In this document: positions 17,301-59,247 of the stretch, one piece after another | Layout of the letters: the number at the start of each line of letters is the position of its first letter | Position numbering within the stretch: position 1 is the stretch's first letter | Source of the DNA: Sphaerolaimus hirsutus | Taxonomy: Eukaryota > Nematoda > Chromadorea > Monhysterida > Sphaerolaimidae | NCBI GenBank assembly: GCA_964036195.1 | Contig: OZ038457.1 | Span: forward strand, 18,131,147-18,195,146 | Reading direction: 5' to 3' | Length of the DNA: 64,000 nt | The notes under the pieces: generated by a model | The model's database searches: none | The model's input: the letters and a program-made list of their open reading frames with translations, nothing else | Told to the model about the DNA's origin: nothing | Position numbers and translations under genes: made by a program

Positions 17301-18225
17301 TAGGGTTGGGAACCCGACCCGAACCCGTTACCCGCACGTTTTTTTGGAACCGAAACCCGATACCCGAACCCGATCTCAATACCCGAACCCGCACTCAATA
17401 CCCGAAAATACCCACAAAAATTTTCCACAGTTCAATCTTTCAAGCAGTTTGGAAGTTTTTGTGAATACAACTTTCAGTTTTATGCAGTTGTAATTTTAAC
17501 ATCTTTGTTTAATTGGTTAGTTTCAATTATTTCAGATCTTATTTTATTATGTGGTGCATATTTTCATTCACATTTAAAAATCACATTTGGCTTGCTGCCA
17601 ATGAGCATGAATATGCTCAATATTGAACATGGTGCAGATAGTTGCCTTTTCCTTAGTCAAAATGACTGCTTGATATCTAGGTGCACTCCACTCATGGTAG
17701 GTGAGTTTGGGTAGGTAGGTAAGTTCGGTTGTGCAAACCAATGAAGGTGTTGTTTCAATGATAGGTGACTATGCCTCATTTTTAAAGTAAGCTCAGTTCA
17801 GTCAAATAAAGTCCCAGAATACAATATTGGACCCAGGGTTGATGGACCCCCTCCTAGGTCTCTCCAAATACTATGTTTTATGTCACAATTCAATGGTCAT
17901 GTTTTTTTCTTGAGCAACATGATTTTTTTGGAAAAACTGCTGCATTTCCACATGTGTATTTGCACTCAGTTATACTCTTTGTGATCGATAGACAACACTA
18001 TGCTGTATTTTTGCAGTTTTATCCAATACCAGATGATTTTATTATGACCCAACAATACCCGACAATTCTATTACCAGATACCCGACATTTGGACCAGAAT
18101 ACCCGACCCGATACCCGACCTCAATACCCGAACCCGATACCCGCAAAATTTTTGGAACCGATACCCGACCCGAAATTTTTTGGACCCTATACCCGAACCC
18201 GAAAATTTTGAAATTCCCAACCCTA
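17301..18225. mobile_element. hAT-like MITE with ACCCG arms
   Basis: The termini are TAGGGTTGGG and CCCAACCCTA. Flanks ATCAGGGA (17293-17300) and ATGAGGGA (18226-18233) match at 7 of 8. The arms are ACCCGA-type tandem repeats (about 17312-17410 and 18055-18205) surrounding a ~640-base AT-rich core. Frames of RTRYP type are arm translations, not protein genes. Confidence 0.85.
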
Positions 18226-18233
18226 ATGAGGGA

Positions 18234-19152
18234 TAATAAATATTATTATTGTTGAATGTAAGAACATGACTCTAATGGCCACATGGTGGACGCGGAATGT
18301 TTATTGTTGACGCCACATGCAGAATTCCACATGCTCATTTGATGTGAATGTAGACCATGTGTGTGAAAATCCTCGCAATTACGTTTCTCTACATATTTTG
18401 AGGATACGCTTACAACAGGGAGCGATTTCTTCACGTCAATCTAGAGCCAACCCTGAACTTCAAGCTTATTTGCTCTTGGCACCATTCAAAACTGCGACAG
18501 TGAAAGTAACGGATCGTTGAACGTATTGAGACTTGGCTCACGTCCAAATTTGCTTTGGATAGGGTTAGATACAATTGGATATTGCAGGAATGAGAGTAAA
18601 AGACGCAGGATTTCGTTCGCATCACCAATAATGGACGTAGAATGCGATAAAGCGAGCGGAAATGGTCGCTAATGGCGGCCGACATGATGTATGTGTACAA
18701 ACGGGTGTATACACCATTGTTTTGGCCGGTTGCCAAGTCTAAATACGTTTAATCGCCAAAGTAACATCTGGGTGTGACCCTTGATCTACTTTTCATCTAC
18801 GGTGCAGAATTGTTATCGTAAGTTACTATGTTACTAAGTAAAACGAAAACTATATTCCGATGCCATTGTAAAGCTCAAACAACAACAGCCACTCAAATAT
18901 CGTTTATACCTTGGATTTTTTACAAATGGATTCCCTTTGCCGCAAATCGGCTACACAAAATGCAAATTGTAGCAGTTTTTTTCTCGGCTAGCACGAGTGC
19001 GTCAAAAAATTGACCAATCAGCAATGGGTTTCTGTTATTTGACCCAAGATTTTCGGTGAGAAAAGGAACATTTATAGACACTGTTTGACTTGGTCGAAGT
19101 AATTTATGAGGGCGATATTGGTTAATTTTGCTGTGTTTACTTAAATCACGCG
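18234..19152. other. Intergenic, no gene recognised
   Basis: Ordinary-composition sequence with short frames on both strands. No conserved motif, RNA gene or transposon terminus was identified. Confidence 0.35.
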
Positions 19153-19754
19153 GGTTGGAACCGATCTATGTGAGATAAATAAAAAATTATGGACACCACT
19201 AGTTCTATCACATTTTCGTTTTTTTGCCGTTTTAAGAATAAAAAAGTAAAAAAGGTAGCGCGCAGAATTTTGGTCATAAAATAGCGAAACGAAATCAGCA
19301 TAAGCTGTGCGTGGACCTCCGCACTCTTAGAAATCATCACGGACTGGATCGACAAGATTTCGGTAATTTAAACTATATTATTGTTGCTGTTTTTCTCTGA
19401 ACCAACCGGCGCCCTAATATCAAACCGTTCAAACTGCACATTTCATCGGATGCCTAAAGATATTTCCCTTCACTCAGGAATCGCTGTGTTTCCATTGCTA
19501 ATATCTGGTTGTATTTACAACTGGTTTTCTCCAACTGGCGTGAATTTGTATTTTCAATGGATTCGACGGGTTCTACGGTGTGTTTTTTTTGTCAGATTTG
19601 GGCTACAAATTTCTGTTGACCCTCGCGATGTTTCACGAAGTTTTCGGAATGGGCGGATCTGGGTGTACGGATTTGAGTAAAGAGTAAATTGCAAGGTTAT
19701 TGATAATTTTTACCAGAATATTTCTTTTCCACAACATTGTAGGCTACTCAGCAT
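19153..19754. other. Low-copy segment, donor of an inverted copy at 40215-40826
   Basis: The segment contains a 99-codon frame on + (19381-19680) and a 69-codon frame on - (19146-19355). Neither has a recognised domain. Its reverse complement, together with part of the adjoining MITE, is inserted in the second tandem unit with almost no change. Confidence 0.75.
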
Positions 19755-20369
19755 TAGGGTTGGCCGATGTTTTTTTTAATAAAAAAACGTTTTTAAAAAC
19801 AAACAAACATGACGTCTGAAATGTTTTTTTATTATTATAAAACATCGACCGAAATTTTTAGTACTAAGCACTAGGTATTTTGCAAAATTTTTGCGCGCAA
19901 GCGCGCAATTTCACACACAAATTGACATTGGTGGTTGTTTTCATTGGTTTTGAGGCATTTTTAGTATCAAAGTATCCATTTATATATCCTACCATGGGTT
20001 AATAAGCCGTCATATGTTGCTGTAGTATATAATATTGAGGTAATGTGCTTCCATGTACCTCCACAGTGTGTAACTTCACTCCCAAAGTAACAACCTCGTT
20101 TTATAACCTTGTTTGATCACTATTCCGTGCCAAACTTTACCTGAAGTGACGAACATTTGACTATAAGGCGATATACGAACGATATGTCGACGAAAAATGG
20201 ATATTTTTGACACAAATCACCACTTATGATGCTATCCCATGGCTCCACAGACATTATATGGTCATATATAACATCACAGAGTATTGCCACTGTCTGATAT
20301 ACCTGTATATGTTGACACAAGGTTATATCTGGGAGCTTTTTAAAAAAAAACGTTTTTTTCCCAACCCTA
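19755..20369 (-). mobile_element. hAT-like MITE, AACGTTT-arm family, copy a
   Basis: 615 bases with TAGGGTTGG and CCAACCCTA termini and the perfect 8-bp TSD CTCAGCAT (19747-19754 and 20370-20377). The arms are alternating A and T runs with AAACGTTT. The core contains GCGCGCAAGCGCGCAA and ACTAGGTATTTTGC. It lies in reverse orientation to the copies at 23564, 24507 and 58404. Confidence 0.92.
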
Positions 20370-20377
20370 CTCAGCAT

Positions 20378-20838
20378 ACGCCATTTGCATTAGAAATTTT
20401 TATTGCAGAATCTAATAATTGGACATGGCGCCGGCAAGTTTGTGCGTGGATTTCTAGCGTACATCTCTGTCCGCAGATGGTCAGTTTGGTTGGATTGATT
20501 TTTGAAATGGTTGTTTCTGCAGCCTACTGGAGAGTGTTTATTTGTAACGTCTGTAAGTATGTGAAAATATTCCTGTGTCCCAAAGTATGAAAATATTCGG
20601 CTATCCTTTCCACTTAGCATATATTTGCATGTCTCGCAGTTAGCAGCGGTAGCCTGGATGAGTGCCGTGACTTGGCACTTGTCCAATTGTGAAAGCTGTT
20701 GCCCGCTGTGACGCGCCTGCATTCCTGCAATTCCTCAAATGGCACTGACTGCGAAAGGTTTGATTTTGATCTCTGCTTGCTTTTTTACTTTGCACTGTTT
20801 GGGTCATTGTTAAGGGTTGTTGAAGGGTTCGGTTTATG
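20378..20838. other. Intergenic, nothing identified
   Basis: No gene, RNA or element boundary was recognised between two MITEs. Confidence 0.35.
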
Positions 20839-21322
20839 CAGGGGTTCAGTAAGGGGGCGGGTTACCCCGCAAATCCGCCAGCTATCTATCTATCCCGGAG
20901 GCCCGCTCAGCTATCTATCTATCCCGGTGGCAAAATTTTGGGCTACTATCCCCTAAACCCCCCCCCCCCAAATCGGCCTTTTATCTATCTATCTGGAGCG
21001 ATTTTTCAGAAACTATACCCCAATTTTCGCTCAAAATCGCTATTTTTCATACCTTTATATAGATTTTCACCTCCAAAATCACTAGTTCATGCATCTAACT
21101 GCCTATTTTCAGCTATTTTTAGTACTTTATGCCATTAAATACCCATTTTTAGCCATTTTTCACCTACTTTTAGCGATTTTTCTCCTTTTCGTCCCTTCTA
21201 TGCCTATATATTGAACCCCGGCGAACCCCCCCCCAGAAAATTTCTCAGCTATCTATCCCTCCGGATGAGCGATTTGCTATCTATATGAACCCCCGCGGGG
21301 GTCCAAATCTACAAAACCCCTG
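20839..21322. mobile_element. hAT-like MITE, CAGGGGTT / AAAACCCCTG termini
   Basis: The ends are inverted and flanked by GGTTTATG (20831-20838) and GGTTAATG (21323-21330), 7 of 8 matching. The arms carry CTATCTATCTATCC plus C runs. The core repeats TTTTCACCTACTTTTAGCGA-like phrases. It is the same family as 30526-31463. Confidence 0.8.
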
Positions 21323-21768
21323 GGTTAATGGCATATTTAGCAGTAACGTTTCCAGCAGGGTTAGGCATTGTTGGTCCTCAAAATATGTGTTGGCTTTTTT
21401 TGTAAATGTTATGCAGACCCTCGCCGGAAATGCGCACGAAATGCACTCGAAATGCACTGATGTGACCAGAAAATTTACTAACACTACTTCATGAACGTTT
21501 TTCTTGAACTTGAAGATTGATACTTATAGCGCAGTTGTGCACTTACCAGCGTAATGTTTTCCAGCTGGCAGTGGTGCTCTGGGTGCGGTGCCGTGTCTTG
21601 GCATTCGTCCATCGGCACTGATCTGATTGAGTCGTCGCGATGCGCAGCGTCGCCTTTTGGCGCTGTGCCAGATGTTGGCGGACAAGGTGGTCAGCTACTT
21701 GCCTTATGAGGTTAGTGTCGGGCTGACTTTTGGCTGACAGCTTGTTCTGGTACCAGGCCGCTTTCTGG

Positions 21769-21982
21769 GGCCAGTTCCGCAAGTGGAAAAGTTAAGAGTT
21801 AAAATTTAAGAGTTGAGTAAAATGACAAATGACAAGTTATGAGTAGAGTTAAGAGTTGAGTAAAACGACAAATGATTTTACTCAACTCTTAACTTTTAAC
21901 TTTACTCATAACTTATAATTTATCATTTTACTCAACTCTTATGTTTTAACTCTTAACTTTTCCACTAGCAGAACCGGCACCA
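21769..21982. mobile_element. Foldback element, CCAGTTCCGCAAGTGG family
   Basis: GGCCAGTTCCGCAAGTGG at the left mirrors CCACTAGCAGAACCGGCACC at the right. The arms are AGAGTTRAGTAAAATGAC words in opposite orientation. Relatives are at 23207-23364, 59987-60118 and 60262-60380. Confidence 0.65.
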
Positions 21983-22328
21983 GATCGGTTGTTGTCATTT
22001 TGTGTGTGCAGGGAGTTTTCAAGAGGGGGTCTTATTCGAGAATATACGGTAGACTCCTCCCCGTTTTCAGCTATGTGAGTGGTGCCGTAAGCGGCGGTGC
22101 TCCACTCTGACGCCGTGCCATGCTGCCTCGCCTCGCTGTCTCGTGTAGGTATGTAGGTATCTCCATTTTTTATTATTTTCGTACCTGTGTTTAAGCAGGT
22201 TCCTGTGGTTGGATGGTTCCCTCCGCTATTTTTGTCTCATCTGTGTTTTTATTGTGGTCCAAATTGACTGTGCGCTTTGCACCGTAATATTCTGTCTGAG
22301 TTATGAAATTTAAGTGTGTTGGTTGAAT

Positions 22329-22426
22329 TAGGGTTGGAAAAAAAACTTTTCGGACGTCATGTTTTTTTATAAAAAAATGTTGTTGTTTTTTAAAAAAACG
22401 TTTAAAAAAACATCGGCCAACCCTAG
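22329..22426 (+). mobile_element. 98-bp deletion derivative of the AACGTTT-arm hAT-like MITE
   Basis: It retains TAGGGTTGG and GGCCAACCCTA termini and the A/T-run arms but has lost the ~450-base core. The perfect TSD GGTTGAAT lies at 22321-22328 and 22427-22434. Confidence 0.9.
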
Positions 22427-22820
22427 GTTGAATTGTGGATAACTGCACCGGATGCTACCATAGTTTTTGTTAAATTCCATGCACCGAAATTAGGTGAATT
22501 TCATAATTCATGTGTGTGCTGCTGTAACTGTAGGATATGTGGAATTTAACAACAATTATGGTAGCATCCGGTGCAAAGTGTTCATTTTGTATGAAAACGA
22601 TGGTTTAAATATTGTGCTACCAAATCTCTGCCAGTTTTTATCGATATCAAAAAATTAGAAATATCGAAAATGTTTCATGTAAAATAATTTTGTTATTCGA
22701 TGTCATATCCTGGTCTGTGTACTATCCCGGTTTATCTTGTCCTGGTTTGTATACGGTCCCGGTTTATGTTGTCAGAAAAAAATTATATTGAAAAATCCAT
22801 AGGTATCCATCATTTTATAT

Positions 22821-23046
22821 AATGGTACAAGTTTGAAACAAAAAAACAACAACAGAAGAAATAGATATTTCTTCTGTCTAAAAATGATATATTCTAATGG
22901 TACAAGTTTGAAACAAAAAAACAACAACAGAAGCAATAGATATTTCTTCTGTCTAAAAATGATATATTCATGTTTTTTGAATCACATAGAAGCCATAGAT
23001 ATTTCTTCTGTCTAAAAATGATATATTCATGTTTTTTGAATCACAT
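22821..23046. repeat. Short tandem repeat (units of about 75 then 56-60 bases)
   Basis: AATGGTACAAGTTTGAAAC recurs 75 bases apart, and the phrase AGATATTTCTTCTGTCTAAA occurs three times, the last two followed by TGATATATTCATGTTTTTTG. No protein is inferred. Confidence 0.7.
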
Positions 23047-23206
23047 ATTTCTTCTTTTTTTAAAAAGTTTTTAACATTTTTTCTGCATAATGATCTGAAA
23101 AACAAACAGGTTTTGGATGCCTGAAGAGCTCTCTGGGGTGCCAGTGCTTTTTTCAACCGCTTTTTAACTGTTTTTCAGACCTAAAGTAGATCAGACTCTT
23201 CCTACT

Positions 23207-23364
23207 TCCGGCCTACTTCCGCAAGTGGAGAAATGAGAACTGCTTTTGCCAAAGTGAATTGATAGGTAAAATGGCAAAAGCAAAGAAATAATTTTTTGTT
23301 TTTTTTCGGTTTTTCTTTGCTTTTGCCAATTTACTTCTCAGTTCTCCACTTGCGGAACTGGCAC
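23207..23364. mobile_element. Foldback element, TTCCGCAAGTGGAGAA family
   Basis: CTTCCGCAAGTGGAGAA and TTCTCCACTTGCGGAACTGG are inverted ends. The arms GCAAAAGCAAAGAAA and TTTCTTTGCTTTTGCC pair across the centre. Copy in unit 2 at 39209-39366. Confidence 0.7.
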
Positions 23365-23563
23365 CAGTTCTATTTAGGGTTCGCCAGGCTTCTTCAACCG
23401 CGTTTAAAAAAGTGCCGCGTTTAAAAAAGTGCAAGGCTCCCACCCAGGGGTCTCAATCGGCGCGCGGTTTTAAAATCTAGGCGAGTACGAGTGCGCAGAG
23501 TAACACTGGCACTAGTTGTTCACGCGGACAAAAAATAAATAAAAAAACAAATAGATACAGTGT

Positions 23564-24214
23564 TAGGGTTGGAAAAAAAACGTTTTTTTTTAACTCGATG
23601 TTTAAAAACGTTTTTTTAAATAAAAAACGTTTTTTTTAAAAGCTCCCAGATATGACCTTGTGTCAACATATATAGGTATATCAGACAGTGGCAATACTCT
23701 GTGATGTTATATATGACCATATAATGTCTGTGGAGCCATGGGATAGCATTATAAGTGGTGATTTGTGTCAAAAATATCCATTTTTCGTTGACATATCATT
23801 CGTATATCGCCTTATAGTTGAATGTTCATGACTTCAGGTAAAGTTTGGCACCGAATAGTGATCAAACAAGGTGATAAAAGGAGGTTGTTACTTTGGGAGT
23901 GAAGTTACACACTGTGGAGGTACATGGAAGCACATTACCTCAATATTATATACTACAGCAACATATGACGGCTTATTAACCCATGGTAGCACATAGAAAT
24001 GGATATGTTGATACTAAAAATGCCACAATCCCAATGAAAACAACCACCAATGTCAATTTGTGTGTGAAATTGCGCGCTTGCGCGCAAAAATTTTGCAAAA
24101 TACCTAGTGCTTAGTACTAAAAATTTCGGCCGATGTTTTTTAAAAAAAAAAACATTTTGGACGTCATGTTTTTTAAAAAAAAAAACGTTTAAAAAAAAAC
24201 ATCGGCCAACCCTA
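23564..24214 (+). mobile_element. hAT-like MITE, AACGTTT-arm family, copy c
   Basis: 651 bases, TAGGGTTGG..CCAACCCTA, perfect TSD TACAGTGT (23556-23563 and 24215-24222). The arms are A/T runs with AACGTTT. The core begins CTCCCAGATATGACCTTG and ends near GCGCGCTTGCGCGCAA. It is intact here but interrupted in unit 2. Confidence 0.93.
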
Positions 24215-24456
24215 TACAGTGTGCGCAAAAATTTCTATCCCGGAGGCAAAATTTTGGGCTACTACCCCCTAACCCCCCCCCCCAAATCGCCCAGCTATCT
24301 ACCTATCTGGAGCGATTTTTGCGAAACTATACCCCAATTTTCGCTCAAAATCGCTATTTTTCATACCTTTTTATAGATTTTCACGTCCAAAAACATGGTT
24401 CTGGTTCCTATTTGCCTATTTTCAGCTATATTTAGTATTATATGCTCTTGTATACC

Positions 24457-25803
24457 TAGGGTTGGCACTTGATTTTTTTTAACTGAAAAAAATCAACGGG
24501 TGGGAATAGGGTTGGAAAAAAAACGTTTTTTTTTAACTCAATGTTTTTTTAAAAAAAACAACGTTTTTTTTAAAAAACAACAACGTTTTTAATAAAAAAA
24601 AACGTTTTTTTTAAAAGCTCCCAGATATGACCTAGTGTCAACATATATAGGTATGTCAGACACTGGCAATACTCTGTGATGTTAAATATGACCATATAAT
24701 GGCTGTGGAGCCATGGGATAGCATTATAAGTGGTGATTTGTGTCAAAAATATCCATTTTTCGTTGACATATTGTTCGTATATCGCCTTATAGTCGAATGT
24801 TTGTGACTTCAGGTAAAGTTTGGCACGGAATGGTGATCAAACAAGGTTATAAAAGGAGGTTGTTACTTTGGGAGTGAAGTCACACACTGTGGAGGTACAT
24901 GGAAGCACATTACCTCAATATTATATATTACAGCAACATATGTCGGCTTATTCACCCATGGTAGCACATAGAAATGGATGTTTTGATACTAAAAATGCAA
25001 CAAAACCAATGAAAACAACCACCAATGTCAATTTGTGTGTGAAATTGCGCGCTTGCGCGCAAAAATTTTGCAAAATACCTAGTGCTTAGTACTAAAAATT
25101 TCGGCTGATGTTTTTAAAAAAAAAAAAAAACATTTTGGATGTCATGTTTTTTTATTAAAAAAAACGTTTTTTTAATATAAAAAAACGTTTAAAAAAAAAC
25201 ATCGGCCAACCCTAGGTGGGAACTGATTTTAATTTAAAAAAATCAAAAGTCAAAATTTCTGGTAGACTTGCACTAGGTATTTTGCATTTTTGTGCACGCA
25301 AGCGCGCAATTTCTCATACATGTTACCATTTGTGGTGTTTTCATGGGTTTTGGGGCATTTTTAGTGTAAAATCTTCCATTTATTCATGTTACCATGCAAT
25401 AATAAGCTGTGATATGCTAGTGTAGTATATAATATCTAACCAATGTGCTCCAACATACTTCTACAGTGTGTAACATCACTGTCAATGTATTAGCCTTCTC
25501 TTACAACCTTATTTAAGCACTATTCCATGCTGAACTTCACTTGAAGTCACAAACGTTTGACAAAAGGCAATATATGTAATAAGTCTACATAAAATGGATA
25601 TTTTTGGCAGAAATCACTGCTCATAATGCTATCCCATGACTCCACAGTCATAATATCACCACAATAGACATAACAATACATTGTCTGACACTTAACATAC
25701 ACATATTTTTTCTCTATACCCCCATTTTTGGTGATTTTAAAAATAATCTGATTTTAATTTTTAAAAATCAAGGCGTTTAAAAAAATTGTTTTTCCCAACC
25801 CTA
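24457..25803 (+). mobile_element. hAT-like MITE, AAAATCA-arm family, carrying a nested MITE
   Basis: The termini are TAGGGTTGGCAC and CCCAACCCTA, with flanks TGTATACC and TGTATGCC (7 of 8). The arms are TGATTTTTTT/AAAAATCA. The core (about 25260-25700) is a diverged relative of the AACGTTT-family core (ACTAGGTATTTTGCA, CGCAAGCGCGCAATTT, TTTTCATGGGTTTTGGGGCA). It is interrupted at 24507-25214. Unit 2 copy: 42150-43495. Confidence 0.87.
24507..25214 (+). mobile_element. hAT-like MITE, AACGTTT-arm family, copy d (nested)
   Basis: 708 bases with TAGGGTTGG termini and the perfect TSD GGTGGGAA (24499-24506 and 25215-25222). It lies inside the left arm of the AAAATCA-arm element, so it inserted later. 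Unit 2 copy: 42200-42906. Confidence 0.93.
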
Positions 25804-26107
25804 TGTATGCCCATTTTGAGCCATTTTCACCTACTTTTAGCGATTTCTCTCCCTTTTCTTCCTTCTATGGCCCGAAAAAGCCTATATATCGAACCAGCAC
25901 AACCCCCCAACCCCCCCCAGAAAATTTTTCAGCTATCTATCCCCCCAGAGGAGCGATTTGCTATCTATCCATCCACTCGGAGGGTCAAAATTCCAGATAC
26001 TCCAGCTCCCAGCACTTAAAAAAGCAATGGCATTTTTTAATTTTGAAATATTTTGGTTAGGTCTGGTCCGTTGCAAGGGTTCAGAATGGGGCTGGAAAAC
26101 GGAAAAT

Positions 26108-26635
26108 TAAGGGTGTCAAAAAAATTTTTTTAGGAAAACAGAACGGAAAATGGAAAAAATTGCATTTGGCTGAAAACGGAAACGGGAACAGAACAAAAAT
26201 TTCAGTGGCCTGAAAAGGGTCCAGAAAAACGGAAACGGAAAAATGTAATCTGCATGGAAATGGAAAAATTTGCTGAAATTTTGCCAGAAAATGGATAAAA
26301 TTGGTTGAAATTTTGCTGGAAGTGGAAAAAATTTGCTGAAATTTTGCTGGAAACAGAAAAAGTTTACATAATTGACAATCTGCATGAATGTTTACCAGTT
26401 TGGCTGGAACAGAAAGTTGAGCCAGAAAAAGGTAAATGAGGCGGAAAAACAGAAAATTGAAGCAGGAACGGAAAAAGGTGGAAAAACTGAAAATTTAGCT
26501 GGAAAACGGAAAATGAGATGGACAAACGGAAACGGAAAAAAGTGGCGGGAAAACGGGACAAAAATTTCAGCAGCCGGAAAACGGAACGGAAAACGGAAAA
26601 AATTTGCCTGCGGAAAATGGAAATTTGACACCCTA
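26108..26635. mobile_element. MITE-like element with GGAAAACGG arms
   Basis: The left end TAAGGGTGTCAAA and right end TTTGACACCCTA are inverted. The whole interior is degenerate GGAAAA(C/T)GG and TTTGCTGAAATTTTGC repeats. No convincing 8-bp TSD was found. Long frames on both strands are repeat translations. Unit 2 copy: 43800-44327. Confidence 0.6.
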
Positions 26636-26910
26636 GCTGGGTTACCTACCCACCAAACGCTGTGCTATGTATCTATCATAGTTGTTAAAACATTTACTTT
26701 TACTCGATAAATACATATACTCGAGGTACTGAGTAAATATGTTTGTTTCTTCTGAAAAGGTACTTGAAAAGCAAACTGCAGTCTGTTCTGAGTTAGTGAG
26801 TATGAAACGATCAAATTTGGAAATGTCTGGATATAAAAAATAAAAAAGCACGGTTTTTAATTTATTTTTTTGATCGGCTATTTCTTTGGCGATATGTTCG
26901 CTTTTCGCTT

Positions 26911-27030
26911 TTATTTCAGCCGTTCCTGGACTACTGAGGCATACAAATGCAAAAGGAAGTAAGTTTTGGAAGATTTCAGCCATACCGGTACTACTGGGCA
27001 TTCAAATGCAAAAGAAAATAAGTTTTGGAT
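26911..27030 (+). repeat. 60-bp tandem pair resembling a duplicated mini-exon
   Basis: Two ~60-base units start with ATTTCAGCC, share ACTACTG.GCAT.CAAATGCAAAA, and end AGTAAGTTTTGGA or AATAAGTTTTGGA. Each looks like acceptor, short exon, donor. Whether either is spliced cannot be told. Copy in unit 2 at about 44603-44722. Confidence 0.45.
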
Positions 27031-27128
27031 ATACCCTGGCAAGTATGACAAGTTGGCATCCGGCCAATAATTTCGAAATCGCTCAAAGCTAAAATAGGTA
27101 GGCGTGTCTATAGACGAACATAGCGATT

Positions 27129-27278
27129 ATGATAGTGAAAATTGGCAAAGTGGACTATTGTGGCGATTTTGTGCAAAAAATTGAGGAAAAATCGCTCAAA
27201 GTACGATACGCAACTGGTGACCTGGACGTATGCCAACTTATCAGTCGTGACCAGATCCATAAGTTTGCTAGCGGCTGA
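27129..27278 (+). CDS. Possible small ORF, unknown (49 aa)
   Basis: ATG at 27129 to TGA at 27276-27278, with an in-frame stop shortly upstream. The predicted peptide has a balanced, protein-like composition (residues YATGDLDVCQLISRDQIHKF near its C-terminal part), unlike the repeat-derived frames around it. It could be an exon fragment of an unrecognised gene, perhaps linked to 27449-27561, where a second short frame opens in GC-richer sequence. There are no domain matches from memory and no promoter evidence. The same frame is present in unit 2 at 44821-44970. Confidence is low because it is short and unsupported by splice logic. Confidence 0.2.
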   Translation: MIVKIGKVDYCGDFVQKIEEKSLKVRYATGDLDVCQLISRDQIHKFASG

Positions 27279-27585
27279 CTGTTCTGCGGCGTTCATACAG
27301 TGGGTCGCCGTACGTAGCTTCAAGCGGAGTGCGCCAGGCATGTTTGCTCTCTTTCCTCGTTTTTGGTTTGGCTTTCTCCTATCTAGGTGCTCCTGGGGTT
27401 AGATTGGACACGAGCCAAGTTTGTTATTCAACCTAGGTGGAGTTATCAATGGCCGCACGGTGCTGCTGCCGTCGTGAACAGCAGAATTCGGTGGAGAGCT
27501 TGCGCGACCCAGTGCTGCCGGACGGTGAGGGTGGAATCTTTGTGTTTAAAATTTGCCGGTGACCCCTATCAGGATTAATGGCGCA

Positions 27586-31463: not shown

Positions 31464-31506
31464 GCGGTGGCACTACCGCCAAAGTCATAAGGACCATGGG
31501 TTTTGG

Positions 31507-49159: not shown

Positions 49160-49541
49160 GCGGTGGCACTACCGCCAAAGTCATAAGGACCATGGGTTTT
49201 GGCGCTAATGGCCCTGCGCACACGAGTTTTCACATGAAATTTCGAAAACTAATAAATGAGCTTTGAACATGTCTGAGTTTTCCACAATGAGTCATTTTTA
49301 ATCTCCGTCAACTGTAGTTGACGGCCACCTCATTGTAGAAAACTCAAATGCGTTCTAAGCTGATTTGTGAGTTTTAGAAATTTCGTGTGAAAACTAGTGT
49401 GCACAATATCGCTAACTTTCGAAATTCTTGGAATCTTTCAACGGATTTTAAAAGATCCTCTCGATACTTCGCACTTTCCATCCAAAACAACGTCCTCCCG
49501 CAGCCCCTTTCAGCCAGCAACCCCCAAACCCCCCCTCCAAA

Positions 49542-52130
49542 ATGTCTCGGCCAACAAAGCGCCTCATCGCTCTGCTTCACCGCGCAAGGGGGGTGCCATC
49601 CCGCCGCCTGTCCTCGCACGGGGGTGGTGGCCAGTCGGACATGTTGGTCTACGCCAAGTTCGGCGACCCCTCGAGCGTGGTGCGCTTGGTTACGCAGCCG
49701 GTGCAGCACAGGTTGAGGCCTGGAGAGGTGTGTTGTGGGGGGTGATTGTATCGGTGATGTAGTTGTTATGTTGAGGCTGTCCTCTCGAATCGCGCCGCTA
49801 TTTACCAATCGACAGTAAAGGCCAATTTTTACCAACAATCGTCGACCTCTATATCTTTCAATAGCGCGGCAGTCAAACACTGACTAAAAAAGGAGGGCGC
49901 TTTTCTATTATTTAAAAATAATGTGTTCACACATTTATATGAGTCTACCATTTGCCATCGAATAAGTCAATGTCCTCATCATATTTAAATGTGAATAAAT
50001 ATATTGAATCCCTTCAAATCAACGCCTAAACTTCTTTCAGCTACCGATTTGAGGCACGATTTGAACTAGCCCCTATCCAAATTGTTTGTGTTTTAGTGGG
50101 TGATTTTGAAAATCGTGTAAGCCAACCCTTTCTTCCACTACATAATACTGGCCCCCGTGCACAGGTGCAAGTGCGTTGGCTGGCGGCCCCCGTGAACCCT
50201 GCAGACATCAATATGATCCAGGGGGTGTATGCAATTAAACCGCCGCTGCCCGCTGTGGGCGGCAATGAGGGAGTCGCGCTGGTGGAAGCAGTCGATTCAG
50301 CTGTTAGGTTTGTTTGGGTTTTTGTGATGATGTCAGGATTATTATTTGTGGGGTTATTAATCTTCATAGCTGCTATCAGCAGGACCCAAGAAATTTACTT
50401 GCACTTCGTAAAAAAAGTGATATACGATAATTAACGGAACGATAATTAATTGGTGTTTTAATAAGTTTTCAATTGCAAGGCCACTTTGTGCTGAACCCAA
50501 AAAAATGATTTCACATTTTCCATCACCAACTTTTTCACACCTACCTAAAATTCCCCCCCCCCTAACAGGTCCGTGTCACCCGGGGACCATGTGATTCCTT
50601 CCCGGGCTGGATTAGGCACGTGGCAGACCAGATCCGTTCTACACGAACGTGAACTAATCAAATTGGAGCATGATTTGAAATTGGAACAGGCTGCGCAGGT
50701 GCTCTTTATTTGACGTTTTTGTGTGGTTGGGCGATTTGATCATTAGCGTGCCAAAAATCTATACCGGGGATAATTTTGCGCAAAATGCAAAATGTCGTGA
50801 AAATTTTAAACTGTTCCGTCTATTGTCAGATTTTTCTCTGTCATTTCACATTTTCACGACATTTTACACTGTGTGAGATCGGCTCGACGGCGCTACTTGG
50901 ACAATCGTTGCAACCACTTGTGTACCCTGTTCGTCACCGCTGAATAAGGCCTACAGTCCACACACTAGTTGACATCAAAATTCGTGTCAACTAAAGTCTA
51001 CTAAATTTTGTTTTATTATTTATGTGATTTTAACTTTCGATGTGATAAAGCACAGTTAATTTTATATCGTGGCTAGGGATGGAAAAAACCCTTTGAAACC
51101 GTTTTTTTAATAACCTTTGAAAAAAACCGGCCGTGACGCTTGCCCGGCCAAAATCTTGACACTTTATTTTCATTTTTTCTGCTAAGTTCGATGCTTTGAA
51201 ATCTTTTTTTGTGTTATTTAGTTCAGATTCAGTTGACACGTATTTTCGATGTCAACTAGTGTGCGTGGGCCCATTGTGCCAAAGGCGCCATGGCGCTGCT
51301 GTACTCAGCAGCGGTTTTTCATCATCTGCCTGGTTTCCACAAATTTGTGCTTAAGTACCGCCCGTACAAGAGCGAAAAAGCCCCTGAAAAAACACCCGAC
51401 CCACCAATTCTCCACCCCCAGCTAATGGTCAACCCGTGCACGGCGTACCGCCTACTGTGCGACTTCGCGCAACTGCGCAGGGGCGACACTATCGTGCAAA
51501 ACGGCGCCACCACAGCCGTGGGCCAGTACGTGTGCCAGCTGGCACATCAGTTGGGATATCATACAGTGAATGTGATTAGAACTGGGGGTAATGTGCCGGA
51601 GAAAATGAATAGATTGAAGGTTTGTTGGCTTTGTTTTGGTGGCTGGATCTCAGCCAAGTTTTCCCTGCGTTTTTCAATCTCCATTGGCAAACTCACGTCG
51701 TCATGTGTGGTGGAATAATTTATTTCACGAAAAATACAACCACGATCATCGTAAATATGCACGTCTACAGACTGAACACTTTGTACGGTGATCTACCGTA
51801 ACCGATCGGAATAATAAACCAAAAAAAAATTTTTTTTCTAGTGATAAATATTTACATCGGCTATGCTGTTTTTTGGCACAGAATTTCTCACATGATGTAA
51901 AATACTTAGTTCATTAAATGATGAAATTTTTTTCATATTTAGCATACATCACAACCAGTCCAACATGTTGCCCACCCTGTTGCAGTCGCTCGGCGCCGAC
52001 CACGTGCTCACCGACGTCGAGTTCAAAAAGACCGCGCCAGAGTTGTGGAAACATCATAGAAGACCCAAATTGGCACTGAATTGCGTCGGCGGAAGGCAGG
52101 CGGCTTATCTAGCGCATGCTTTGGATCACG
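49542..52130 (+). CDS. MECR: Mitochondrial trans-2-enoyl-CoA reductase, 5' exons, copy 2 (partial)
   Basis: Exons 49542-49727, 50165-50307, 50569-50698, 51422-51619 and 51959-52130 match copy 1 exactly in splice sites and, as far as compared, in coding sequence. Presequence, GGNEG, GLGTWQT, NPCTAYR, the nucleotide-binding stretch and LNCVGG are all present, about 276 residues. Exon 5 ends in phase 1 within ALDHG, so a further exon is required for the remaining C-terminal region. None is recognisable between 52131 and 64000. If the true 3' exons lie beyond this window, this copy is the better candidate for the functional gene and copy 1 for the redundant one. Intron differences from copy 1 are mostly homopolymer lengths. 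Confidence 0.85.
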
Positions 52131-54232
52131 GTGGGTTTCTCCTATTGTTTCTTGTTTGTTTGTTTTGTTTTTCCGCGGCCAATGGCTGATGTAGTCGTGG
52201 AATACGGGGTACTGTTAAGATGAAGACTATCAATGCAAGAGCGCTGTCTGACGCGTGGCTATACTACAGTGACGTGACAATGTACGCGCAGTTATTTCTG
52301 TCTCACGTTGGAAGCGTGCCAACGATATTTAAAGCATGCGATGTTTGTGAGAAGTCGTTATGAATACTTTTTGTGAAACATCATGACAGCAATGAATTTT
52401 CCATTTTTTTCTGAAAATCGCATGCGAAAAATAACATTGGCGCGCTTCCGGCGTGAATCACGAGTGCAAGGTGTAAAGTCACTGGATAGGGTCTGTGCCG
52501 GTGCGCATGTAAACTCGGTGCGCATGTAGGCTCTGTGCCCATGTATTTCTACCCGGTGCTCATGTAGACTCGGTGCGCATCTTGTTCAACGTTCAACCGT
52601 ACACGCGCACCGATCTACATGGGCACCGGGTTTATATGCATGGGGTCTACAATTACATGTGCACCATACCCATGTACGAGTACAATGCAGTGTTGTTAAA
52701 ATACTGGTATTTTTGGAAAAAGTAAACGTAAACGTCAATACTTTTTTCCAAGTTTCAAGTATAAAGACTAAAATGTATTTATATTTCTAAAATATCTAGG
52801 TAAACGTAAAATAAAATGCAAATATAAAAAATTTCTAGAAGTTCTCTGATATAAGGTAAAAAATGAGTAAAAATTTTATGACAAAATAAAATGGCAAATG
52901 ACAAGGAAACGATAAAAACTTTTTACTTACCATTTCACTTCCCACTTAATAGATATTTACTTGCCATTTCACTTCCCACTTATCAGGTATACAATTACGG
53001 TCCCACGTTGGTAGCTTATTTTTTATGTTTTCTCTGGTAACCGGGTAATTGTGCCAGGAAAACGTAACAAAACGTAACGATAATTTTTTCAAATGTAAAC
53101 ATAAGTATAAATACCCAAATACGTGGGCATTTCAGGTAAACATAAATACATTTTTGCAACAGTGGCCCTGCGCACACTAGTTTTCACACGGAATTTCGAA
53201 AACTCATAAATGAGCTTTAAACGTGTTTGAGTTTTCCACAATGAGTCATTTATAATCTCCGTCAACTGTAGTTGACGGCCACCTCATTGTAGAAAACTCA
53301 AATGCGTTCTAAGGTGATTTGTGAGTTTTCGAATTTTGGTGTGATAACTAATGTGCGCAGGCACACTGGTACAATGTCATCCACCCCTCATCCACGATTC
53401 TCGCTAGCAACCCGCCCGGTGCCCATCTAGCGCTACAACCCTGTGCGCATGTAAACCCGGTGCGCATGTTACCCATCTAGGGGGCTCTACATATGCGCAC
53501 CGAGTCTACATGGGCACCGGGTTAGCGCTAGATGGGCACCGAGTTTACATGCGCACGGAGTCCTCGCCACTGGATATGCAGTATTTAAGAATTGACCCTA
53601 TTTGTGGATAAGAATGTTTTGACATGGGAACTACTCATGTCATGAGATTAATTTTTTCATTACATTTCATACAACCTCCAAATTTATGTTTCATCCGAAT
53701 CATCAAATCATTACAGTTTGAATCAGGATATGTATTGTACCGCATCGCATCGCATCGCGTTGTATCAAATATCGGGCACTTTTTATCCGTACGTGTCTAA
53801 AACAGCGTGAAAGTTGCATGTGCAAGCTATTTTCTATATGCAAACTGGTATTTTTAAAGTTGTGAGGGTTCCAACACGGAATCAAAGATTAATATATGTT
53901 TTTTTTAAAGTGGTTTATGCCGAAGGTCTTGTAGATTTTGATAACTGTGATGGTTCAAATATTTAGATGGATAGATAGCTAACAAAAATCTGGGATGGCT
54001 GGCGGGTTTACGGGGGTTCAATTTGCATATAGGTAGGCTTTTTCAGGTAGGCTTGTAGAAGTCGCTAAAACTAGGTGAAAAAGTTTTATTACAGTCATTT
54101 CCATTATTACCTGGTAATTATTTGTGTTAAATCGAGCATCAAGAATTCCCTTCATATGTATCAAACATTTTCATTGAAAATTTCGCAAAAAGACATCGAA
54201 TGTATGATATCATCCGCATCCTAACCACATTA

Positions 54233-55308
54233 CTAAACATCACTTTCTGGATTTTCTGAACGGTACCAACTGCAAAACAAATAATTTAGCAGCGAAATCG
54301 CTTCACCTCTCACTATTGGATTTACTGCATAGAATATCATAGGATTAAATATAAAAATTGAGTAGGAAAAGAAAACCACGATGAAATCATTCCCAAACAC
54401 TGAAAAACCAAGGCTTATAGTGATACAAACACCTAAAACTGTCATTTGTGTTACAAAGAAAAGAAATCCTTGCCAAAGTAACCCTTCTTCTAATTCGATT
54501 CGCTTAGAACTTTTAACGCAGGTGCTTTTTGCACCCTGTTTCCTCAAAATTACAACAAGTGCTATGTACAACCCAAAATTTATTATGGGGATAGTAGAAA
54601 AAAATGTTATGTTTATTATATCAAATGTTTTTTCAAACTGTAAGGAGCTATCTGGACAATTACTTGTGTATGTCATATTTTTTAAATTTAGATAGTGCCA
54701 ACATCCTGTGTACATATATTTTGTCACTTCGATGACAAGTGACCCAACACAAATTGTAAAAATGAAAAAATACACATGTGGTTTTGCAGTGAAAAGTCTA
54801 CCAAACCAAGTGTTTGACAAGCCAAACATGACATCAGAACCACAAATAAATCTGTTTATAGATATGCATGTAATTACTGACAAAAAAAATGTTGAAAAAA
54901 ATTGCATATTAAATGCTAACAGAAGAGTGTTGAAAATTCTATTTTCAATCAAAAAATAACCCAAAAGACAGGACGGGGCATAATAACATAAACTAATTAA
55001 AAGCAAGTAGATTGTTCCAATATTTATTACCAGAACTAATGTATAAAATGTGTGAGAAAATTTCTGATCATTATTTCTGATTAGTACACATATTACAGGC
55101 ACTTTCAGAATTATTGCGATTGTCATCTGAAAAGAGTTGTATGTGAAATACTTATTTTAGATTTGAAAGGTAGTTACAAACAAACCAGTGCCATCCATAA
55201 AATAGCTGATGTGAAATTCACGAGAATTTTGATATCCTTGGAAGTAGAAATATTGTTTGTATTAGCCATTGGATTGGTGTCATTTAGCCAAAATTCTGCC
55301 TGGGCCAT
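54233..55308 (-). CDS. Seven-transmembrane receptor, nematode serpentine-like, copy 2
   Basis: Exons 55186-55308 and 54233-55126 with the same 59-nt intron, 338 residues. It has the same architecture as copy 1. Five replacements are visible in exon 2, numbered in the full protein: I104R at the start of TM3, I168V, M222I, L304M within the TM7 motif (NPMIFY), and S315G near the C-terminus. About three silent changes accompany them. All key motifs and both loop-2 cysteines are kept and no stop or frameshift occurs, so both copies could be functional. The GGCACC-arm MITE lies immediately 5' in both units. Confidence 0.72.
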
Positions 55309-55485
55309 TATGAACTAGAACATTTAGCTGCTTCTCTGAACATTAGATCATGTTTATATCCGCATTTTTGTTGCTGGGTTTTCTTTGAAACAAATTTAAT
55401 AGTATTTACATTGGAAAAATAAAATAGTATTTGAATAAAAAGGTGTCGTTTCTAAAATATACCCTTCGAGCCATGTCATCATTAG

Positions 55486-56340
55486 TAGTGATGGAAAAGG
55501 CACCGGGAAAAATGGCACCGCACCGGCACCGGTGCCATTCCTCAGAAAGGGCACCTGGCACCTTGGGCACCGGCAAAAAAATGGCACCGCACCGCACCGG
55601 CACAGGTGCCATTCTGAAAAAATAGCACCGACAGCCTGGGGTACCGGCCGGTTGCCGGTACTAGCACAGAAAGGCACCGCACCGGGCTGAAAGTTCCGAA
55701 GGATTTATCGGGTATTTTCTTAGAGGCCGCACCTTCAGAAGTGCATTTTTTCACGAATTGTCTATTGATTTTGATCTTTGAGCATTCAAAGTGATCAGAA
55801 TGATGTGGCGATCACTTTATGAAGCAATTATAATAATTACAAATGATAGCTCAAATATTTAATTTGCTCCAATACACATACCAGTAGTCACTATTGTCTA
55901 CTGTCTGGGGTGGATATTGTGCAGGAAATGTCATATTTTGTCATATACTGACAACAAATTATGAGGTTAATGGCAAAACAAATGTAATATTTATGATTGA
56001 AGAAAACACAATCATGTATTCCCTCTTCAGAAGGGTAATTATGGCACATTTCAAAGTAAATTTGACGAGACGTTTTTTTCTAGAAATGACTGAAAACAGT
56101 TGAATCTAGAATATTGATCTTATAAATATGAATAAGCACATGCTGTTGACGAAATTTTACACCCTATTAAGACTTGGCCGGTGGCTTTCCCGGTGCCTTT
56201 TACTTTGGCCCTGGTGCTAGCACCTTTGGCACCAGCTGAAAAAGGGCACCGCACCGGCACCTGTGCTATTCTGGAAAAAATGGCACCGGCAGGGCACCCA
56301 AAAGAAATGGCACCGGTGCCCCGGTGCCTTTCTATCACTA
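55486..56340. mobile_element. GGCACC-arm hAT-like MITE (unit 2)
   Basis: Copy of 37802-38675 with TSD ATCATTAG (second at 56341-56348). It is 19 bases shorter because one GGCACC-type stretch near 56310 is contracted. Confidence 0.9.
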
Positions 56341-56579
56341 ATCATTAGCGAATGCTAAACCTGAATATATGCCCACATCATTTGTCTTTTTTTATTTATG
56401 TATCAGTTGATCCAACTTGGACCTTGTTTGGTGAGAGAAATTTTGAGTCGCCACTTTCAAATTTTGTCTTTGTAAACACAAATGTAAAGATACATTATGG
56501 CCACAATTTTATGGCACTGATTGGATCAGCAAATTGCTTTACCATATTTCTATTCTAACGTATCAGTAGCAAAGGCAGC

Positions 56580-57328
56580 TAGGGTGGCAGAATTTACCGT
56601 ACAGTACCGTACCGCATTTTTTGGAAATTTACCGTACCGTACCGTTTACCGCACTTTTAGAAATTTACCGTACCGTACCGCGTACCGCATTTACCAAAAT
56701 TTACCGTACCGTACAGCACTCATTTACCGCAGAAAATGCGATAAATTTTACTCAGATTGACATTAAATATGCCAATTTATTAATGACAGTTAACGCGGTG
56801 TTTTGAAATTTCACAGCACTGTTTTCCTGATTTGAAGCCCTTTCATTTCATTGATATGAGTCATGATTCACATTAGTATAATGTGTTTATAAAATCAAGC
56901 CATGTGCTTCAACACGCTCTTAAGGCGTAAATTTCACTTACTTTTAGCAATTTTTCACCCACTTTTAGTAATTTTTCTTCATTTTCTTCCTCCTACACCT
57001 TGAATAAACCTATATATTGAACCCCTACATTGTGGGTAATGGAATTTTATGTCATCATACTGTTATTGTGTTTTTAAGTCCATTTATCAAATTTTGTCAC
57101 TGAATTTGGTGTCAATTTATGAAGTAAAAGTTCTCTGTAGTCCGGCACTGATACAGTTCTGACAATCAGAAATTTACCGTACCGTACCGCGTACCGCACT
57201 TTACAGATTTACCATACCGTACCGTTTACCGCAAAATTGAAGATTTATCGTACCGTACCGTTTACCGCAAAATAGTAAATTTACCGTACCGCATGGTTTA
57301 CCGCAAGGCCGTACCGTCTGCCACCCTA
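56580..57328. mobile_element. hAT-like MITE with TACCG arms (intact)
   Basis: 749 bases, TAGGGTGGCAGA..TCTGCCACCCTA, perfect TSD AAGGCAGC (56572-56579 and 57329-57336). The arms are TTTACCGTACCGTACCGC repeats (56597-56735 and 57172-57315) flanking an AT-rich core with TTTTAGCAATTTTTC-like phrases. The tandem duplication breakpoint corresponds to about 56806 in its core. Confidence 0.92.
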
Positions 57329-57430
57329 AAGGCAGCAAGCATATTCTAGAAAAAAAATTATGACTTTTTCATTATTGGATACAGTATGTAACTTCTGTAT
57401 GCATTGCGTTTTGCAAAATATGAACATACC

Positions 57431-57562
57431 TAAACACCTTCCCGATCAAGTCCGGCCACCAATTTTTTATTTTACTTCTGACGTCCTAGAACTGGAAATA
57501 GGACATCAGAAGTAAAATAAAAAATGGGGGGGGGGGGCCGGACTTGATCGGAAAGGTGTTTA
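57431..57562. mobile_element. 132-bp hairpin element, GATCAAGTCCGGC family
   Basis: TAAACACCTTCCCGATCAAG and CTTGATCGGAAAGGTGTTTA are the ends. Nearly the whole element is self-complementary around CTAGAACTGGAAATAG. It shares GATCAAGTCCGGC with the palindrome at 62108-62812. Confidence 0.8.
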
Positions 57563-57876
57563 TTTATGTAAATACATGAATGTATGTGTAGTGTGGGAAT
57601 TAATGCAATTGCATTACGGCATGCTTATAAAAACCTACTAAAATTACTTTCACTGCAATTGGTTGTAAGCCAATGATGCTGATTCTGACTATGTAGTGGT
57701 TGTACGGCGCCATTAAGAAGTTGGTGCTCAGCACTTTTTGAACATCTATTTACCGCTGATCCATTTTTGTAAAATCATATGCATTTCCTAGGGGTTGTTA
57801 CATTTTTCCTGTGTGGTGTTCACTCAAAATGACACCACTTATTTATGATGCTATGGAATGGGTCCTACTGTGGGAC

Positions 57877-58157
57877 TAGTGATGTGAAAAGCGCCAGAAC
57901 TGTGGCACCAAGCGCCATGGCGCTTTTCCGACACCCAGCGACAAGCGCCATGTCGCTTTTGCTTTGGCGCTAGCGCCAAGCGCCAGCCCCAGGCATTTTG
58001 TTCCTGGTGCCGGTCAAAAATAGCGCCAAGCACCAAAAGCGCCATGGAGCTTCTCATGGTCAAGGCGCCAAGCGCCAATGGCGCCACAGCAAAATAGCGC
58101 CAAGCGCCATGGCGCTTTTTGCTTTGGCGCTAGCGCCATGGCGCTTTTACACCACTA
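57877..58157. mobile_element. hAT-like MITE with GGCGC arms
   Basis: 281 bases, TAGTGATGTGAAAAGCGCC..GGCGCTTTTACACCACTA. Flanks TGTGGGAC (57869-57876) and CGTGGGAC (58158-58165) match at 7 of 8. The interior is AGCGCCATGGCGCTT repeats almost throughout. The termini resemble those of the GGCACC-arm family. Confidence 0.85.
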
Positions 58158-58248
58158 CGTGGGACCTTTGTGTTTGTCACCTTTTGTGTTTTTCAACCAC
58201 TGGAACTTGCGCTTGAACTTCTGGCTTTCCCAAGATAACTTTCAGATA

Positions 58249-59247
58249 CCGTAGTTCTTCTAATAGAAGAGCGCCGTTCTATTTTTTTCGTCAACTTTTT
58301 TACCTGCCGTTCTATTGGAGGCCGTCGTTCTATTTTTTCACACATTTCTCACTAAACATAGCCTTTTTTTGGTGAAGCTTCAGCAATATTTTAATATCAG
58401 AGCTAGGGTTGGAAAAAAAACGTTTTTTTTATACTGTTTTTTTAATAAAAAAAAAACGTTTTTTTTTAATAAAAAAAACGTTGTTTTTTTAAGCTCCCAG
58501 ATATGACCTTGTGTCAACATATATAGGTATATCAGACAGTGGCAATACTCTGTGATGTGATATATGACCATATAATGTCTGTGGAGCCATGGGATAGCAT
58601 TATAAGTGGTGATTTGTGTCAAAAATATCCATTTTTCGTGAACATATCGTTCGTATATCGCCTTATAGTCAAATGTTCGTGACTTCAGGTAAAGTTTGGC
58701 ACGGAATAGTGATCAAACAAGGTTATAAAAGGAGGTTGTTACTTTGGGAGTAAAGTTACACACTGTGGAGGTACATGGAAGCACATTACCTCAATATTAT
58801 ATACTACAGCAACATATGACGGCTTATTAACCCATGGGAGCACATAGAAATGGATACTTTGATACTAAAAATGCCACAAAACCAATGAAAACAACCACCA
58901 ATGTCAATTTGTGTGTGAAATTGCGCGCTTGCGCGCAAAAATTTTGCAAAATACCCAGTGCTTAGTACTAAAACTTTCGGCCGATGTTTTTTAAAAAAAA
59001 CAACATTTCGGGCGTCATGTTAAAAAAAACGTTTAAAAAAAAACATCGGCCAACCCTAATCAGAGCATCAATTTGACATGTAATATCTATTTTAATGCTT
59101 AGAACGTTCTCTCCATTCATATTTTACTTAACTTTCGTATTTTGGCACACTCCCAACACAATTTCTACCTGCTGTTCAATTGCAGGTGCCGTTCAATTGG
59201 AGGTGCCGTTCTATTGGAGGTATGCCGTTCTATTAGAAGAAATACGG
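58249..59247. mobile_element. TA-flanked MITE with TTCTTCTAATAGAA ends, carrying a nested hAT-like MITE
   Basis: CCGTAGTTCTTCTAATAGAA and TTCTATTAGAAGAAATACGG are inverted ends bordered by TA. The arms repeat GCCGTTCTATTGGAGG. It is interrupted by the element at 58404-59058. Confidence 0.78.
58404..59058 (+). mobile_element. hAT-like MITE, AACGTTT-arm family, copy e (nested)
   Basis: 655 bases, TAGGGTTGG..CCAACCCTA, perfect TSD ATCAGAGC (58396-58403 and 59059-59066). It is very similar to 23564-24214, including the GCGCGCTTGCGCGCAA core motif. Confidence 0.93.

Follow-up and report, generated by a model that had tools for sequence, protein, structure and literature searches.

The window, as we call the whole stretch of DNA analysed here, comprises 64,000 nucleotides of the nematode Sphaerolaimus hirsutus (assembly GCA_964036195.1, contig OZ038457.1, positions 18,131,147 to 18,195,146), whose genome measures 348 Mb. 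It contains a mitochondrial enoyl reductase gene and a series of mobile elements that combine short terminal inverted repeats (TIRs) and 8-bp target-site duplications (TSDs) with arms in which a short word, differing from family to family, is repeated in a dense array. In this work, we show that non-palindromic arm words lie on the same strand in both arms of an element, and that this array layout is real and recurrent. The elements are short, without coding capacity and high in copy number, as are miniature inverted-repeat transposable elements (MITEs).

Array-armed elements of the window

The array-armed elements of the window are 97-1347 bp long when a nested insertion is counted in. Elements with AACGTTT arms were found at 19755-20369 (terminus TAGGGTTGG, TSD CTCAGCAT), 23564-24214 (TSD TACAGTGT), 24507-25214 (TSD GGTGGGAA; twin at 42200-42906) and 58404-59058 (TSD ATCAGAGC), together with a core-less copy of 97 bp at 22329-22425 (TSD GGTTGAAT), which is the sole match of a DNA pattern for short TAGGGTT elements. 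Further elements are the TTTTA-arm element at 736-1762 (terminus CAGGGTTGG, TSD GTTATGAA; exact twin at 11762-12788), which lies outside the interval 17301-59058 covered by the initial annotation, the GGCACC-arm element at 37802-38675 (terminus TAGTGATG, TSD ATCATTAG; twin at 55486-56340), the GGGATC-arm element at 41293-41901 (terminus TAGGGTTCAAACGGG, TSD ATACAGTG), the TACCG-arm element at 56580-57328 (terminus TAGGGTGGCAGA, TSD AAGGCAGC; partial twin from ~38916) and the GTAAACG-arm element at 34997-35677 (terminus CAGTGTTGTT, TSD GTACAATG; twin from 52688), which carries another MITE inserted near its right end. All the TSDs named so far match at 8/8 positions. Nine of them, all but GTACAATG, had been claimed in the initial annotation and proved to be exact direct repeats abutting matching termini; GTACAATG is an additional one.

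In six further array-armed elements the TSD matches at 7/8 positions. These are the ACCCG-arm element at 17301-18225 (terminus TAGGGTTGGGAA, TSD ATCAGGGA/ATGAGGGA), two CTATC-arm elements at 20839-21322 (terminus CAGGGGTT, TSD GGTTTATG/GGTTAATG) and 30526-31463 (TSD ACGGTGGC/GCGGTGGC; twin at 48219-49159), the AAAATCA-arm element at 24457-25803 (TSD TGTATACC/TGTATGCC; twin at 42150-43495), which is split by the AACGTTT element inserted at 24507, and the core-less GGGACC-arm (27928-28087; TSD ATTTCTAC/ATTTATAC; twin at 45620-45779) and GGCGC-arm (57877-58157; terminus TAGTGATGTG, TSD TGTGGGAC/CGTGGGAC) elements. The GGAAAACGG-arm element at 26109-26634 (right terminus TTTGACACCCTA) belongs to the CGGAA family described below; its left tip is degraded and no TSD was found. 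The left tip of the TACGCTT-arm element at 4355-5003 (right terminus ...AACAACTCTG) is lost in a gap of N, so that its TSD is unreadable. Within this element, an acidic open frame of 34 amino acids (MDSDDDF...) at 4669-4773 marks a place where a transposase start might lie.

Parts of the window are present twice. The stretches 24208-39153 and 41895-56811 are 99.3% identical across 14,963 columns and represent a single locus seen twice, 1-4154 equals 11027-15180, and 39151-41293 consists of pieces of 19143-24222 that are repeated and rearranged, one of them inverted. An element inside these repeats is one element seen twice, and the window copies are therefore not all independent. The repeats may be unmerged alleles, true duplications, a misassembly or the product of transposon-mediated rearrangement; some of the joins fall inside AACGTTT elements. 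A presumed element at 39566-41285 with TSD TACAGTGT proved to be chimeric, a product of the rearranged repeat, and is excluded from all counts.

When the flanks of terminus pairs were compared, 38 pairs matched at least at 7/8 positions at the true offset (23 at 8/8 and 15 at 7/8), a count that overlapping motif matches and twin copies enter more than once, against 0 to 2 matches at five shifted offsets. A stricter rule open to any terminus (12-bp TIR, at most 1 mismatch) gave 8 candidates in the window, not all of them array-armed, and none in 5 shuffles. Movement is documented most clearly by the GGGATC element at 41293-41901, which has no copy in the twin locus. Its empty site, at about 24214-24221 in the 99.3%-identical copy, reads CCAACCCT-ATACAGTG-TGCGC, and in the filled locus ATACAGTG flanks the element on both sides. 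Discrete elements, TSDs and an empty site rule out unrelated satellites. Short TIRs with a C/TAGNG-type terminus, which is typical of hAT elements, are present, and the TAACGATGG and TAGCATT types depart from this form.

The 16-bp terminus TAGGGTTCAAACGGGA has 5606 + 5596 = 11,202 occurrences in the genome, and its reversed control has none. Among the first 100 places listed, 66 make 33 convergent neighbour pairs, 100-1357 bp long; within 2 kb, divergent pairs number 4 and same-strand pairs 1. Viral contigs scanned for a core word and an array word gave 0 matches. Their 25 matches to the 16-mer terminus were dismissed as chance: 24 lack an inverted partner, none has a TSD, and most read into one shared gene-like sequence. 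A search for the same 16-mer in a second contig collection also gave 0 matches.

hAT domains within elements of the same type

The genome yielded 28 matches to PF05699, the hAT dimerisation domain, and 18 loci were taken around 19 of them. In 14 of the 18 loci the match lies inside an element whose TIR reaches 10/12 and whose TSD reaches 7/8 or better (the shifted-offset control being that of the broader scan below); the enclosing termini are TAGGGYGTCAA, TAGGGTTCAAAC or TAACGATGGCAA. Locus L042 gave a weaker enclosing candidate (TIR 9/12, TSD 8/8), L043 and L053 gave only chance-like candidates at 9/12 and 7/8 with other termini, and L038 gave none until it was lengthened by 2 kb (continued in L057). 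The lengthened locus holds, from position 4044 of L038, an element of 6006 bp, CAGAGTTGTTA...TAACAACTCTG, flanked on either side by TSD CCTTGGCG; it has a PF05699 match of 61.9 bits, and its two arms carry GTAAACGTA-type words on a single strand. Its terminus type is common to the window elements beginning CAGTGTTGTT (34997) and ending ...AACAACTCTG (4355-5003). The transposase gene of the 6006-bp element lies in pieces in several frames, with other repeats in its presumed introns, and its first exons encode a putative zinc finger, a CxxC plus HxxxxH pattern spread over two exons and recognised by eye only.

Seven loci (L036, L037, L040, L041, L049, L050 and L051) combine TAGGGYGTCAA termini with CGGAA arms, and six of the seven hAT-domain copies share 76-82% identity, over the aligned parts, with the GGAAAACGG element of the window. 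In L039 the match sits in a nested CAGAGTTG element (TIR 9/12, TSD GCACCATG) within an ACCCG-type element at 2867-5698, part of which is 94% identical to the core of the window ACCCG element; because of this nesting, the match is not attributable to the ACCCG family. Own hAT-domain copies were thus found for the CGGAA, ATATCGA/TAGGGTTCAAAC and CAGAGTTG types, and none was identified for ACCCG, TACCG, GGCACC, GGCGC, AACGTTT, AAAATCA, CTATC or TTTTA. It had been proposed to look for hAT transposase sequence flanked by termini of the window type, and hAT domains do occur in that position in the CGGAA and ATATCGA/TAGGGTTCAAAC elements and in the 6006-bp CAGAGTTGTTA element. The hAT affiliation given to the whole group is accordingly direct for families with hAT domains inside same-terminus elements with 8-bp TSDs; the others are placed by terminus, TSD and layout. 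A transposase within the window itself was not found: 22 proteins, representing 20 different open reading frames (ORFs), gave no hAT match, the scan being drawn from 25 ORFs of at least 110 amino acids, of which the remaining five are twins of scanned ones, with shorter frames outside its scope.

A TIR plus TSD scan of the 18 loci gave 45 candidates (46 with slightly different margins), where five shifted offsets yielded 3 to 8, and 40 of the 45 are hAT-like by terminus; the loci were chosen for hAT and are therefore not a random sample. A set of 45 perfect TSDs follows the preference nTnnnnAn reported for Hermes (PMC10368747) at 46 of 90 positions (nominal P 2e-5, under a simple null with an assumed base frequency of 0.30), and the window TSDs alone do so at 15 of 32 (P 0.03).

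Strand of the word arrays

The arms had initially been described as inverted, which our analysis contradicts. Inversion is limited to the outer ~10-20 bp, sometimes plus the first word, and further inwards the two arms of a window element carry their non-palindromic words on one common strand, most of these words lying within the outermost ~120-180 bp of an arm. Counts of the word on the plus/minus strand in the left and right halves were 10/0 and 12/0 for ACCCG, 14/0 and 14/0 for TACCG, 13/0 and 16/2 for GGGATC, 2/0 and 1/0 for GGGACC, 8/2 and 7/3 for GGCACC, 11/6 and 14/1 for TTTTA, 6/0 and 11/0 for GGAAAA, 5/2 and 6/3 for AGCGCC, and 5/1 and 4/0 for TACGCTT; the CTATC elements gave 9/0 and 3/0 (20839-21322) and 6/0 and 3/0 (30526-31463). 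Apart from CTATC and GGAAAA, the families have similar numbers of words in the two arms.

When the arms of an element were aligned locally, the direct orientation outscored the inverted one in 12/12 window elements, and in 11 of these it surpassed all shuffles. This set used one of the five AACGTTT copies and left out the CAAGGACG element at 6840-7287, whose direct and inverted scores are equal. Two window elements found later were both direct as well. Random stretches showed no bias (500 stretches: direct 233, inverted 201, ties 66), and four other window elements, picked as known inverted repeats, scored clearly as inverted. In the 18 hAT loci, the direct alignment was the better one in 34/34 elements outside the TAACGATGG family. 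These 34 derive from the 45 candidates by removal of five with a non-hAT-like terminus (2 inverted, 3 direct), six TAACGATGG elements being counted apart; one of the 34, at 5913-7412 of L045, overlaps a second element and is likely spurious. In a different element set from the same loci, direct exceeded inverted in 12/16, the exceptions being in L042, L047, L048 and L052. The arms of the 6006-bp element scored 49 direct and 25 inverted, with a shuffle maximum of 26. Moreover, the strand of the word relative to the hAT frame is identical in 7/7 related copies of the CGGAA family. A direct layout would be expected to leave a trace genome-wide, with CGGGATCGGGAT and ATCCCGATCCCG about equally frequent within 30 bp inside the tip TAGGGTTCAAACGGGA, where an inverted layout would give one class.

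Pairing and composition of the arm words

The family-specific arm words of the initial annotation hold in the window and recur in elements from the 18 other loci, where TAGGGTGTCAA is paired with CGGAA, TAGGGTGGCAGA with CGGTA, TAGGGTTGGGAA with CGGGT, TAGTGATG with GGTGC or GCGCC, CAGGGGT with CTATC, and CAGAGTTG with AAGCG, GTAAA or CACTT; several of these pairs are based on one or two elements. Terminus TAGGGTTCAAAC occurs with three words, GGGATC, GGGACC and ATATCG. The AACGTTT and AAAATCA elements are sister families with common termini and homologous cores (341-347 of 473 positions). From these sisters, and from the terminus that GGGATC and GGGACC have in common, it follows that terminus and word are not tied one-to-one. 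The word differs in both arms of the sister pair: each of the four full-length AACGTTT copies has AACGTT in its two arms and the AAAATCA element has none, and GATTTT/AAAATC shows the reverse pattern, with small counts (2 and 4 per arm).

The most widely enriched arm trinucleotide is CCG: of 11 families, five show it at 3x or above (null mean 0.1, largest 3, in 2000 draws from a simple null). ACC reaches 3x enrichment in four families, and by composition one family has GCGC-rich arms and three have AT-rich arms.

Other elements and genes nearby

A further MITE family, whose GCGCACACTAGTTTTCAC-type ends were located by eye, occurs at 31505-31712, ~35467-35677 and 63535-63840; the arms of the first are truly inverted, and it served as a control in the arm comparison. 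An inverted repeat of 703 bp, which matches its reverse complement at 92% identity, occupies 62104-62806. Elements of the CAGGGACGTAGCC type, which contain runs of poly-G/C, lie at ~3350-3737, at 6840-7287 (perfect 8-bp TSD GTTTCAGT) and at 6707-7134 of L045 (TSD 7/8), and form another hAT-like family without strand-coherent words. On the minus strand, 36549-37442 (twin at 54233-55126) is an intact frame of 297 amino acids for a seven-transmembrane receptor that weakly resembles the Srx family of nematode chemoreceptors (E 8e-05, narrowly missing the Pfam cut-off).

Discussion

The strand-coherent arrays of S. hirsutus are probably words for transposase binding, which would change between families while the terminus or the core persists. 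We infer this role from the arrangement of the words, and published work on Hermes (PMC10368747) and on CGGBP-type hAT domains (PMC8097297) supports it; some printed results point the other way. According to this model, the elements are hAT-superfamily DNA transposons, mostly non-autonomous, which move by cut-and-paste and leave 8-bp TSDs. Each word would be a binding site of the N-terminal DNA-binding domain of the transposase (a BED finger plus a Hermes-type domain), the arrays would confer avidity, and their common strand would make the two ends non-equivalent, as in Hermes. A change in transposase specificity would then lead to the rewriting of both arms, possibly aided by copying between the direct arms, and families would come to differ by word yet keep a terminus or core. 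Core-less copies consisting of arrays may have arisen from recombination between direct arms or from abortive gap repair. It is also possible, and we put this forward more tentatively, that the genome holds a library of predicted hAT recognition codes, in which the word is replaced in both arms together and the common strand marks left and right at synapsis.

The closest parallel is Hermes, whose transposase binds AAGT/AAGC repeats near the tips via its BED domains (PMC10368747). Repeats STR2-7 of its left end are given as antisense and STR1-5 of its right end as sense, each end being drawn from its TIR (PMC10368747); by our own conversion of these orientations, left-end and right-end repeats share a single strand of the element. 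The nematode elements thus resemble Hermes in an 8-bp TSD with nTnnnnAn, in short motifs near both tips and in having both ends on one strand. They differ in that the Hermes motifs are scattered, 17 and 14 per ~450-bp end, whereas the nematode arrays are dense, their words are family-specific and the copies are mostly non-autonomous. Hermes elements symmetrised to left/left are cited from earlier work as inactive (PMC10368747). The Herves transposase binds a repeated 8-bp motif as well as a synthetic tetramer thereof (PMC3143072), and those of Ac, Tol2 and Tag1 likewise bind short repeats near the ends (PMC3143072; PMC10368747), although the sections of these reports that we consulted do not describe such repeats as strand-coherent tandem arrays differing between sister families. 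The motif preferred by CGGBP-type hAT domains is usually CGG or CGC, and for some of them an AT-rich one; the motifs of four hAT proteins match their own subterminal regions (PMC8097297). The binding spectrum of hAT-19 and its kin (CGG, CGC/GCGC, AT-rich) is that of the arm words; no CGGBP-type protein was identified in the nematode genome, where no search was aimed at one.

Several observations weigh against a binding role of the arrays or against the generality of the layout. Firstly, in Hermes, restoring asymmetric BED sites to a left/left transposon gave no rescue in cells, mutation of the inner putative sites of the left end left ~70% of activity, and the BED domains are not engaged at the right end (PMC10368747), so that long arrays may be dispensable and site asymmetry is not sufficient. 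Secondly, the same-strand rule fails for palindromic words, where its meaning is slight: in the TAACGATGG family, with the palindromic word TTCGAA, 2/6 elements are direct and 4/6 inverted. GCGCC-type arms carry words on both strands, though they are among the 34 direct-scoring elements, and the CAGGGGT candidate of L042 (TIR 9/12) scores 106 inverted and 28 direct. In a 6-mer comparison of 17 window elements, direct was higher than inverted in 11, equal in 2 and lower in 4, namely three of the five AACGTTT copies and AAAATCA (66 to 64). The fixed polarity within the CGGAA family may reflect common descent alone. Thirdly, the putative finger of the 6006-bp element gave no zf-BED match and fell below every Pfam cut-off, and the short hAT-domain copies that we looked at encode mainly the C-terminal domain, so that word and BED specificity cannot be paired; the comparison of CGG with published specificities was made after the words were known. 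Three 10-kb stretches chosen regardless of hAT held 0 strict-rule elements. Lastly, the suggestion in the initial annotation that the arms homogenise stands in part: long direct arm alignments that include the spacers (GGGATC, 162 columns; GGCACC, TACCG and ACCCG) point to copying between arms, which a direct layout would allow, but after masking of the words the spacers score above every shuffle in only 3/12 elements (GGGATC, GGCGC and one CTATC).

Among other explanations, the one that fares best, though we consider it unlikely, is that the arms of these hAT elements are selfish simple repeats without binding function, in which a repeat-prone seed expanded by slippage or gap repair and spread by copying between arms, the word itself being neutral. 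The long inter-arm alignments fit with this, as do higher-order units of 26-72 bp and the TACCG left arm, which differs between the twin loci by 6 substitutions in 149 bp as compared with 29 in 10,717 bp outside elements. Expansion by slippage, also proposed initially, is hinted at by two word-unit indels of 19 and 7 bp between the twins; however, a comparison of seven young copy pairs shows no consistent excess of change in the arms over the cores. A neutral word also sits poorly with the concentration of words mainly in both subterminal zones, in similar numbers per arm (CTATC and GGAAAA apart), with the single polarity kept in CGGAA lineages that are only 72-77% identical in aligned parts, and with words that centre on CGG, GCGC and AT motifs. 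Rather improbable is that the arms bind, in place of the transposase, a host factor such as a DNA-bending or chromatin protein, which would aid synapsis or targeting. The authors of the Hermes study propose such a factor because sequence beyond 50 bp matters and the putative BED sites there do not (PMC10368747), but a single host factor fails to explain why each family of one genome has a different word. A non-hAT origin as foldback elements or as satellites whose tandem arms are inverted, suggested by the likeness of tandem words in TIR-bounded elements to Tetris, which has tandem repeats within its TIRs and 8-10 bp TSDs (PMC4079207), is already contradicted by direct arms where the foldback plan of Tetris and Galileo calls for long inverted ones, by hAT domains inside such elements and by discrete elements with 8-bp TSDs.

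Predicted transposase-binding arrays of this kind are new relative to known hAT subterminal repeats in being dense, family-specific and strand-coherent within a large, mostly non-autonomous radiation. Word-like arms appear in fish hAT elements of Repbase too, and Drosophila FB and sea-urchin TU are foldback elements, whose arms consist of tandem repeats in inverted orientation. Among titles and opening lines of abstracts in the open-access literature, we found no hAT MITEs with family-specific, strand-coherent arrays. The CMITEs of coral resemble the nematode elements in that the internal region is more conserved between families than the ends (PMC2872659); they are piggyBac-like with a TTAA TSD, and the consulted part of that report describes no word arrays.

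If the arms are binding arrays, the specificity of hAT transposases could be read off the bare sequence of many families together, and the end asymmetry studied in Hermes would become a general and testable rule for hAT elements. Where sister families keep one core but bear two words, a DNA-binding protein and its sites would then have changed together. Host regulators, CGGBP1 among them, derive from the same domains (PMC8097297), and the arrays may also reveal the origin of new CGG-binding regulators and their sites.

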